Shown one piece after another: positions 61,645-63,805 of a DNA stretch of 64,000 nt. Made by a program: the position numbers and the translations under genes. The number at the start of each line of letters is the position of its first letter. The first letter of the stretch is position 1. The notes under the pieces are model-generated. The model saw only the letters and a program-made list of their open reading frames with translations, was not told the DNA's origin and did no database searches. This DNA is from Rhodococcus opacus B4 (GTDB taxonomy: Bacteria; Actinomycetota; Actinomycetes; Mycobacteriales; Mycobacteriaceae), in contig NC_012522.1 in NCBI RefSeq assembly GCF_000010805.1, forward strand, positions 5,270,001 through 5,334,000. The letters are read 5' to 3'.

Positions 61645-61667
61645 GGGCGGCGTACGTTCTTGAGTAC

Positions 61668-61790
61668 ACGAGGAAGGAGGTGGTCTGAAATTGAATGACA
61701 GACGGACACGTGAGGTGGCTGCCAGCTAGCCGCTACCGCTGACGGAATTCACTGACCGCGCGAGCGGCGAGCGAATCCCAGGCAGCTACC
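61668..61790 (+). other. Structured segment after cydC with strong Shine-Dalgarno and micro-ORFs
   Basis: No normal gene fits here. GGAAGGAGGTGG at 61672-61683 is an almost ideal ribosome binding site. Candidate starts are TTG 61691 (12 codons, reading LNDRRTREVAAS then stop) and ATG 61695 (15 codons, reading MTDGHVRWLPASRYR then stop). GGTGGCTGCC (61714-61723) can pair with GGCAGCTACC (61781-61790) in 9 of 10 positions, directly before a terminator-like hairpin. It could be a leader-peptide region, a small RNA, or a small translated gene. Confidence 0.5.
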
Positions 61791-61858
61791 CGGCCCCCGA
61801 GCCCCCGGTCTGGTCCAGATCGGGACCGGTGCACCAGCACCGGAAGGCTCGGGGGCCG
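61791..61858 (+). terminator. Terminator-like hairpin closing the cyd operon or the RNA after it
   Basis: CGGCCCCCGAGCC and GGCTCGGGGGCCG form a perfect 13-bp outer stem. The 42-nt interior holds a second small hairpin around GGTC/GACC. A short GTTGTG follows. Confidence 0.65.
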
Positions 61859-61873
61859 TTGTGCGCTTCGCGC

Positions 61874-61917
61874 CCGTGAGTACTTCTTAACCGCCCGACG
61901 TTAATAAGTACTCACGG
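61874..61917. repeat. 44-bp palindromic repeat, copy 1
   Basis: Arms CCGTGAGTACTT and AAGTACTCACGG are perfect 12-bp inverted copies around a 20-nt centre. It differs from copy 2 at 63036 in 4 of 44 positions and has the same orientation. On the minus strand it contributes the last nine codons (REYLLTSGG) and stop of the neighbouring gene. Confidence 0.85.
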
Positions 61918-62939
61918 CCGCGCGGGCACGGGTTCGGCCCACTCCAACCGCCCCGCTCGAGAACCGCCCGCACCTCGGCCGCGACGTCGCACGAGCGCCT
62001 CGTCACCTCCTCCCAGCCGTACACCAGTGTCGCCTTCCCCGCGAGTTCCGCCGCGTTGCCGCGACGCCGGTCGCGCAGAGTCACCGACCGCGACGAGTGG
62101 TATCGCAGCCCGTCCAGCCGCACGAGGAGCGGAACGCCGCTGTCCGAGTAGTCCACGTCCTCGTACAGCGTCTTCCCGTCGACGAGCATCGGCGACTGTC
62201 GCCGAGCGGCCGGCTGTCCATGGGCGAGTTCGACGTCGACGGCGTACCGGTGCTCCAGAATCGACTGGACACCGCTCGAGACGAACGTCAGCGCGTCGGT
62301 CAGCGCCTTGCGGTATCGGCGCGGCGGACGCTGCTCGATGCGTCGAAGCAACGCGGTCACCGACACGTTGCTGCCGGTGACCGCCGCGACGACGACACGC
62401 GCGGCTTCCGGCGCCGACGGCTCCTCGACGGCCAGATCGACGACGGTGTCGGCCAGGGACGTCCGCGGCAGGAGCGTCGGGACGAGGATGTGAGCGTGCG
62501 CCCGGGACCGGTGCACCACGACCCCCGGGTGGAGGAGATCGCCCTCACGGGGGACCAGACGGTCGGATCGCCGTCCGACCTTGCGATACGTCGGTCCCTG
62601 GGGCTCGGCCGACAACCCGTAGGGCACGGTGACGTGGATCGGCCCCTCGGGATCGACGGGCACCAGCGCCCACTCCTCGGCCGGGGTCCGGTGGCTGAGA
62701 ATCGCGCGGGGACCGCCGAACAGCAGCGCCGCCCACAGCATCATCGGCCGGTCGAGGGGGCCGTTGGTGACGGCGTACACGCCGTGCAGGACCGCCGACC
62801 ACTGGCCGGATTCCACCATGTGCTGAATCTGCCGGGTCGAGATGCCCAGCCCGCGCAATTGCCGGGCCGTGACCAGGCCGTGCTGGTGGTCGAGGACGCG
62901 CTGGAACTCGGGCTTGAAGTCGATCGTCGCAGGTGTCAT
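61887..62939 (-). CDS. AbiEi-like winged-helix / DUF559-like protein
   Basis: A 350-residue protein. The N-terminal part (DHQHGLVTARQLRGLGISTR, then RQIQHMVESGQWSAVLHGVY) is the winged helix of type IV antitoxins (AbiEi_4). The middle has LFGGPRAILSHRTPAEEWAL. The C-terminal third resembles DUF559/Vsr-like endonucleases: LYEDVDYSDSG, LDGLRYHSSRSVTLRDRRRG, then LVYGWEEV. In relatives I remember, an E-x-D-G motif is present; here it reads RLDG, so nuclease activity may be lost. No AbiEii-type toxin gene is adjacent. ATG 62939 is preferred over an upstream start because the winged helix then begins normally. The gene is bracketed by two 44-bp palindromic direct repeats, and its stop lies inside one. 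Confidence 0.75.
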   Translation of the reverse strand: MTPATIDFKPEFQRVLDHQHGLVTARQLRGLGISTRQIQHMVESGQWSAVLHGVYAVTNGPLDRPMMLWAALLFGGPRAILSHRTPAEEWALVPVDPEGPIHVTVPYGLSAEPQGPTYRKVGRRSDRLVPREGDLLHPGVVVHRSRAHAHILVPTLLPRTSLADTVVDLAVEEPSAPEAARVVVAAVTGSNVSVTALLRRIEQRPPRRYRKALTDALTFVSSGVQSILEHRYAVDVELAHGQPAARRQSPMLVDGKTLYEDVDYSDSGVPLLVRLDGLRYHSSRSVTLRDRRRGNAAELAGKATLVYGWEEVTRRSCDVAAEVRAVLERGGWSGPNPCPRGREYLLTSGG

Positions 62940-63035
62940 GGACGCGACGGTGCGCACGCAGGCCGACAGGAAACGCCCGAAGAAGGCCGATTTCAACTGG
63001 CCTGCGGATGAACGTCAGGTTGTGGATAACCCGAG

Positions 63036-63079
63036 CCGTGAGTACTTGTCAACCGCCCGCGGTTAATAAGTACTCACGG
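63036..63079. repeat. 44-bp palindromic repeat, copy 2
   Basis: Same 12-bp arms CCGTGAGTACTT / AAGTACTCACGG as copy 1, in direct orientation and 1.1 kb away. It lies 96 bp upstream of the AbiEi/DUF559-like start and 3 bp before the nitrobindin stop. Confidence 0.85.
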
Positions 63080-63082
63080 GCG

Positions 63083-63805
63083 CTAGCCAACGTAGCGGGA
63101 CAGCCGCGCGGAGAGGTGGGGGCGCAGTTCCCCGTCGGCGATGATGCGTTCCTCGACGTACGCGAGGTCGCCGCCCTCGACGATGCCGTAGAGACGCTTG
63201 GCGCCCCCGACCAGAACACCGGAGGTGCTGCGGATCACGACATCGGTCGCGAGCTCCCACGACGACTGGGTGAGGGCGCGGCCGTAGAACAGTTCGACGA
63301 TGCCGGAGCTGTGGGCGAGGAGAAGTTCGACGACTTCCTCGTTGGTGCTGCCGGGAATGCCGTCTCCGCTGATCCGCCAGAAGCCGGTCTCGTGGAGGTC
63401 GGGGCGCACGTATTCGCCGTCGGTGCCCAGAACCCAGGTCTGGGATTTCCACTCGAGGTAGTTGCCACCGTTGTGGGAGACGATGATCTGCTGCCCGAAG
63501 TGGTAGTCGCCGGTGTCGGGGTCGTGGCCTTCCCCTTCGCCGCGCCAGACACCCACGAGCGGCAGTACCGCGAGGAGTTCGTTGTTCAGATCCGGGCCGA
63601 GGCGAAGATTTGCGGTGTCCTCGGGCAGCGGAAGGTCCGGAAGCTGCGGGATGTTCCGCGACGCCGTCGTCTTGGCACGCTCGACGGCGTCAGCGACAGC
63701 TGCGTCACCGCTACCACGACGCACGGTGGGGGTGCCCCCAGCGGGGTCGCTCGTAGTCGGGTGCTCGGAAGGCGAATCTGCGCCTGCGTCCGGGGTTTGA
63801 CTCAC
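63083..63805 (-). CDS. Nitrobindin family haem-binding protein (FABP-like)
   Basis: A 240-residue protein. The first 75 or so residues are a low-complexity Ser/Pro/Gly/Ala-rich extension. A ten-stranded barrel follows with the family motif GxWxGxG in [49 protein letters not shown] has the central strands, and His230 in [10 protein letters not shown] near the C-terminus is the expected haem ligand. Relatives bind ferric haem and react with nitric oxide or peroxynitrite. The GTG at 63805 overlaps the stop of an upstream micro-gene by 4 bp. Confidence 0.88.

Follow-up and report, generated by a model that had tools for sequence, protein, structure and literature searches.

A family of 40-bp palindromes in Rhodococcus and a putative dedicated AbiEi-Vsr-like protein that may overwrite them

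In this study, a stretch of 64,000 nucleotides from Rhodococcus opacus B4 (contig NC_012522.1, positions 5,270,001 to 5,334,000), hereafter the window, was analysed around a gene for an AbiEi-Vsr-like protein and the two palindromes that bracket it (Table 1). The neighbours of the gene in the window were a nitrobindin gene and an ATP-binding cassette (ABC) transporter gene read as cydC. The likely start of the gene was the ATG at 62939, the longest open reading frame began with the TTG at 62996, and the gene ended with a TAA at 61887. The two palindromes were found in direct orientation, 1162 nt apart from start to start, with 40 of 44 nucleotides identical, and the outer arms of each copy were perfect over 12 bp. 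An earlier reading of the DNA letters alone (the sequence-only reading) had described two 44-bp palindromic direct repeats 1.1 kb apart, one of which gives the last nine codons of the gene; both statements were recovered, the minus-strand stop codon lying inside copy 1, the downstream palindrome. A repeat finder stretched both copies to 48 nt at 90%, and the core of the palindrome was found to be 40 bp long with GTG...CAC ends. Copy 2, the upstream palindrome, starts 3 nt past the stop codon of the nitrobindin gene (TAG, 63083-63085).

Table 1. Position of the gene, its protein domains and the flanking palindromes in the window
Feature	Position	Strand	Remark
Gene for the palindrome-associated AbiEi-Vsr-like protein	61887-62939	minus	350 amino acids
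Codons 1-135, with the winged helix and the beginning of the AbiEi-like half	62535-62939	minus	type tracks the palindrome class in relatives, by partial Mantel tests and swap profiles
Codons 225-332, Vsr/EDxHD-like nuclease domain	61944-62267	minus	by fold
Downstream palindrome	61874-61917 (40-bp core 61876-61915)		overlaps the 3' end of the gene
Upstream palindrome	63036-63079 (40-bp core 63038-63077)		96 nt before the ATG of the gene

In the 8.83-Mb genome of R. opacus B4, the arm pair GTGAGTACTT/AAGTACTCAC (exact arms, a gap of 10-30 nt allowed) was found 77 times and its reversed control 0 times in the search for the arm with its inverted partner that had been proposed earlier. A chance origin of the repeats is excluded by the genome counts against zero controls. 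No Rfam match was found over the repeats themselves, and an Rfam RNA family was rejected as their identity; the actinobacterial small RNA Ms_IGR-5 (RF02471, 151.3 bits) was located at 61666-61864 of the window, between the cydC gene and the downstream palindrome. The same genome contained five AbiEi_4 genes, and a one-to-one association of the 77 arm pairs with such genes was rejected.

The N-terminal half of the protein was found to have an AbiEi fold and the C-terminal domain a Vsr-like catalytic fold, in agreement with the winged helix and nuclease-like fold of the sequence-only reading. The protein matched AbiEi_4 (PF13338) at 32.5 bits (cut-off 25), and a Pfam scan up to E 10 gave only AbiEi_4, AbiEi_3_N and MTES_1575, with no transposase family among these matches. 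As to the earlier AbiEi/DUF559 label, DUF559 itself was matched only below threshold (12.7 bits against a cut-off of 20.6), in one of the six relatives scanned, but the C-terminal fold is Vsr-like. The residues E229, D261, D276 and H281, candidates for the acidic and histidine residues of an active site, were invariant in 42 of 42 sequences. A protein of R. koreensis shared 94% identity with that of the window. A PDB sequence search with the family profile gave no match at E 0.01, and an NCBIfam scan of four proteins gave none at E 1.

Bacterial genomes were scanned with the alignment of the family, which yielded 132 relatives; the best 80 of the 132, ranging from Rhodococcus to Saccharopolyspora, were kept as loci. 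The 40-bp core was present on both sides of the gene at 58 of the 80 loci, on one side at 13 and on neither side at nine. At these loci, the 107.9 kb surrounding the genes contained 131 GTG...CAC cores of 40 bp, and the remaining 729.9 kb contained 20. A search near the genes for cores of any length from 30 to 50 bp gave 180 matches, of which 131 were exactly 40 bp long, and the 32-bp matches (n = 37) appeared to be nested. A search made without the GTG...CAC rule gave a matching pair at 54 of the 80 loci. The sequence of the palindrome varied from gene to gene, yet the two flanks of one gene agreed; the mean flank-to-flank identity was 35.4 of 40 positions, against 21.4 in shuffled pairs (maximum of 2000 shuffles, 23.9). 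The lowest of the 58 pairs (17/40) belonged to the hybrid gene of R. jostii, and the remaining pairs ranged from 29 to 40. Two-sided changes that keep the pairing were found at 15 of 18 base pairs in 36 diverse cores, which had been chosen for pairing, so that their share of paired cells follows from construction.

Further homologues drawn from the class (L141-L169, 29 loci) included 12 that were bracketed by matched palindromes, as judged by coordinates, and the kind of palindrome there was frequently different (e.g., CCATGATCAT...). As a control, four 400-kb stretches were examined, in which nine of 897 called genes of at least 200 amino acids had palindromes of the same class on both sides; five of these nine carry the RDRRR motif of the family. 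Two distant AbiEi-type genes (L051 and L052, 35% identity over a short stretch) were found near another long palindrome, ATGTGACATTCGTTC..., and a further one, TTGCAATGAGCACCGATACG..., occurred twice in the 400 kb read of G201 (C1, 560617 and 790191; L282 and L293).

Within the genus, 28 genomes were sampled, including that of R. opacus B4 (G000). The arm pair was found in 22-89 copies in 10 of these genomes, in one copy in two and in none of the other 16. The gene of the window locus was present as a long match in 12 of the 28 genomes, G000 included. In seven relatives, with a protein identity of 89-94%, both flanks were the same palindrome as in the window; in G009 (77%) one flank was of the same kind and the other was degenerate; and in three relatives (61-62%) that had no copy of the window's repeat, both flanks were a different palindrome, GTGCGCCTTTATTAACC.... 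G027 contained a truncated class-A gene and 22 class-A copies, and the nine genomes with a long gene contained 46-89. In 15 other genomes, the spacer at nitrobindin contained the truncated gene (G027), one degenerate palindrome (G024), remnants (G007 and G012), a near-clean join (G022) or no palindrome (G003, G015, G017, G018, G020, G021, and G023), and in G013, G014, and G025 the neighbourhood at nitrobindin was different. The mobile cassette suggested by the sequence-only reading is supported in part only: the spacer of relatives is empty, scarred or left with one degenerate palindrome, but no dispersed site at a clean new place was found in the stretches compared. Repeats without such genes and genes without the repeat were both found, and both are only superficially at odds with a pairing of the two. 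The repeats far outnumber the genes, as repetitive extragenic palindromes (REPs) outnumber the genes of REP-associated tyrosine transposases (RAYTs), and the three relatives with the gene and without the repeat have their own, equally matched pair.

A paralogous gene, at the same locus in different Rhodococcus species, was found to be of type B (GTGCGCCTTTTTGGTAG...) or type C (GTGAGTGGTTAAGGAGT...), the type being assigned from the flanking palindromes. The family gene was present in 18 genomes of the genus, five with type B, 11 with type C, one with a hybrid (G004) and one with another type (G020). Across 64 loci, the partial Mantel correlation of the palindrome with residues 1-135, given the rest of the protein, was 0.391 (0 of 500 permutations), whereas that with the rest, given the N-terminus, was 0.125 (11 of 500); as the loci are related, these figures are guides and not probabilities. 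The proteins of L084 (B) and L076 (C) had 46% identity over residues 1-135 and 96% over residues 136-335. In the swap profiles of G000/G010, G008/G026, and G011/G001, the upstream palindrome and the N-terminal block differed, the downstream palindrome differed separately, and the DNA between the differing blocks was 82-98% identical in 60-nt windows. The hybrid gene of G004 (R. jostii) combined the N-terminal half and upstream palindrome of type B with the downstream palindrome of type C, and compared with its sister G016 it differed only from the upstream palindrome to slightly under half-way into the gene. At the 3' end of a third paralogue (class D; L027, L279, and related loci), the palindromes were composite and overlapped one another, and the reading frame of this paralogue was interrupted or partial in the G000 or G005 matches.

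The dispersed palindromes were then counted by class, with up to two mismatches allowed. The numbers of B/C copies in the genomes with a B gene were 69/20 (G000), 61/25 (G008), 69/11 (G027), 27/14 (G011), and 24/15 (G012). In the genomes with a C gene they were 7/21 (G001), 17/19 (G002), 14/71 (G005), 47/44 (G006), 18/51 (G009), 20/57 (G010), 6/40 (G016), 0/55 (G018), 13/21 (G022, with a frameshifted gene), 12/45 (G024, with its gene at a contig end and one flank visible), and 17/60 (G026). The share of B copies was 0.62-0.86 in the five B genomes and 0-0.52 in the 11 C genomes, with no overlap. The hybrid genome G004 (19/62) has the new N-terminus, B, and palindromes that are mostly of the old class, C, and G020 had 0/0 copies.

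Single sites were compared between 400 kb of the R. opacus B4 genome and the counterparts in relatives. G000 had nine B sites there, including both flanks of the B gene itself; they corresponded to eight C sites and one B site in G010, and to six C sites and one B site in G005, where two were unmapped. All mapped A sites remained A (10 in G010 and eight in G005), and the mapped D sites remained D (10 in G010 and six in G005) apart from one atypical site. This site (4279836, D by the class rule, against C) was matched by a single flank, did not pass the two-flank mapping and was left out of the argument. The difference at switched sites was restricted to about 40 bp, varied from site to site and recurred in several lineages. 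In G008, which has a B gene, 11 of the 12 B/C sites of G000 were mapped and eight were of the same class; two were still C where G000 has B, and one was B where G000 has C. One B site common to G000 and G008 had clearly different B variants. These discordant classes and variants speak for a putative overwriting of sites that is independent and gradual. At site 4382631, the B core of G000 and G008 retained a CTCAC end resembling the C form, as if the exchanged piece had ended inside the palindrome. Two 40-mer matches, 3873215 (in G010) and 4468247 (in G005), lay in well-conserved DNA where the relative has no palindrome; they look like chance and were rejected. In G005 (C1, about 4194403, 4284501, and 4468737), class-A palindromes were split near the centre by similar inserts starting near GGGGGCTGTT, as if an insertion sequence targeted class-A palindromes there.

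The matched flanks at 58 of 80 loci and the dispersed B and C classes that track the gene type support the proposal of the sequence-only reading, a REP-type palindrome family with its own protein. We consider it likely that the 40-bp palindromes form a REP-like family and are overwritten by a dedicated AbiEi-Vsr-like protein, the biochemistry being an inferred part of this explanation. Its basis is comparison of sequences: the matched flanking pairs, the N-terminal half co-varying with the palindrome and the in-place differences of sites that follow the gene type. These suggest that the scattered palindromes change in place to match the version of the gene that is carried. In such a process, the AbiEi-like N-terminal half would recognise the inner arms of one palindrome class, and the C-terminal half, which resembles Vsr and homing endonucleases, would act on the DNA. 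The protein would bind the palindromes and, perhaps when these are folded into hairpins or cruciforms, would cut or nick those with the common GTG...CAC ends; repair would then fill the break with a copy of a cognate palindrome, and overwriting would proceed site by site. On balance, and with less assurance, we favour a wider reading, a selfish or co-opted palindrome-homing system in which the AbiEi-Vsr-like nuclease matches the palindromes of a genome to its own specificity, and in which a swap of the N-terminal half by recombination would be followed by the rewriting in place, one by one, of tens of dispersed 40-bp sites. Such a system would be widespread in Actinomycetes with many specificities.

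Where the sites lie bears on a different explanation, in which the host benefits from the palindromes as transcription terminators or as hairpins at mRNA 3' ends, the protein does no more than repress its own promoter from the upstream copy, and the matching is ordinary binding-site selection. In three 400-kb stretches, a simple gene caller placed 30 of 34, 34 of 39 and 26 of 31 sites outside called genes, and among the intergenic sites that lie next to the 3' end of a gene, 18 of 26, 22 of 26 and 15 of 20 were within 32 nt of its stop codon. By the same caller, a gene ended 4 nt inside the core in six, five and three cases, as if the TGA in the core served as the stop codon of those genes. 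Proteins of the AbiEi family are also reported, in excerpts of one paper, to autoregulate through inverted repeats (PMC7319586). However, self-repression leaves aside the downstream flank and the dozens of distant copies of the same class. At switched sites no more than 15-21 of 40 letters agree, and the downstream flank changes by itself, which is hard to reach by stepwise mutation. We therefore regard this explanation as improbable, though it is the best of the alternatives. Under the overwriting explanation, the many sites at gene 3' ends would be places where a hairpin is tolerated or useful.

To our knowledge, no pair of dispersed palindromes and a dedicated protein is well described other than REPs and their RAYTs. 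REP-RAYT units, as far as described in part of one source, have a gene between two palindromes, many dispersed copies, and co-evolution of gene and palindrome (PMC2817692). The flanked gene, the many copies and the co-evolution are common to these REPtrons and to the AbiEi-Vsr-like system. RAYTs being the known dedicated proteins of REPs (same excerpt of PMC2817692), another enzyme elsewhere in the genome, for instance an HUH transposase of RAYT type, might move or overwrite the palindromes with the present gene as a passenger. The class of the dispersed sites, however, tracks the type of the AbiEi-Vsr-like gene in several lineages. A GTAG or CGTC tag was likewise not in excess beside the palindromes; 19 of 131 flank cores had one in the adjoining 10 nt, both strands considered, against 47 of 131 random places. 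A passenger role of the gene thus appears quite improbable. The present system also differs from REP-RAYT units in that its protein is AbiEi-Vsr-like and not an HUH tyrosine transposase of IS200/IS605 type, its core is symmetric and 40 bp long, and its sites differ in place by gene type.

The distribution of types on a nitrobindin tree was also considered. It grouped G000 (B) with G010 and G006 (C), G008 (B) with G005 and G026 (C), and G011 and G012 (B) with G001 and G002 (C), although it is a tree of a single gene with some weak nodes. As B and C are interspersed on it, DNA has moved between lineages or has switched repeatedly, and the gene type has probably changed more than once in the genus. 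Such interspersion would also be produced if the B and C palindromes were carried on larger chromosome pieces by interspecies homologous recombination, with no overwriting at the level of sites. But the 20 letters beside switched sites were as similar (mean 15.6, range 11-19, 14 comparisons, the atypical site excluded) as those beside unswitched sites (mean 15.4, range 8-20, 40 comparisons), and the DNA around the differing downstream palindrome matches well; we hold this explanation to be very unlikely. Least credible of all is a remnant of a type IV toxin-antitoxin (AbiE) or defence gene that came to lie among repeats by accident, which leaves the matched palindromes at 58 of 80 loci unexplained. 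In the window, the one locus covered, the neighbours of the gene are nitrobindin and the ABC transporter read as cydC, and no AbiEii toxin (nucleotidyltransferase) gene was found beside it.

Several findings weigh against the overwriting explanation. The 40-bp core was missing on one or both sides at 22 of the 80 loci, six of which are at contig ends, and 17 of the 29 more distant homologue loci had no clear bracketing pair. The rule that a genome without the gene has no palindromes fails: no gene was detected in 10 genomes of the genus, yet six of them (G003, G013, G015, G017, G021, and G023) keep many palindromes (36-94 matches, both strands counted), which are read as orphans left after gene loss. 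Genome-wide matches of covariance model R1, in which both strands are counted and scoring ends at 150 candidates for each genome, were not taken as copy numbers. G006 has a C gene and yet 47 B and 44 C copies, with a listed contamination of 9%, and a single B site was of class B in each of the four genomes examined. The syntenic stretches compared contained no dispersed site that was cleanly new or empty.

Other known systems resemble parts of the putative palindrome-overwriting protein. AbiEi antitoxins of type IV toxin-antitoxin systems, including Rv2827c, share the winged helix and the AbiEi-like second domain; here, a nuclease-like domain is fused, no AbiEii gene is adjacent in the window, and the sites lie on both sides of the gene and across the genome. 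According to the excerpts of PMC7319586, AbiEi proteins bind inverted repeats next to their own gene, and two of them do not bind each other's repeats. The C-terminal fold, and the joining of a nuclease to a separate DNA-binding part, are shared with Vsr and the EDxHD homing endonucleases such as I-Bth0305I, reported in part of PMC3943268 to act as a dimer on a target of nearly 60 bp, but no intron or intein is involved here and the apparent spreading unit is the 40-bp palindrome. DUF559 and REase_MTES_1575 are weakly similar to the C-terminal part in single members, the matches staying below the curated cut-offs, and DUF559 is titled a protein of unknown function. Rhodococcus was not named in the main texts of two REP surveys (PMC3733652 and PMC12306157), and in a search by title and abstract, which covered few subscription papers, no paper was found that describes these palindromes with this protein.

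If true, our explanation would add a second, unrelated pair of palindrome and protein and would mean that such partnerships arise repeatedly, and it would give a role to an uncharacterised type of actinobacterial protein. The domain swaps that occur in nature offer a ready-made experiment on the way in which a protein may rewrite its sites along a whole chromosome, and the N-terminal halves would form a natural collection of modules that recognise 40-bp palindromes.
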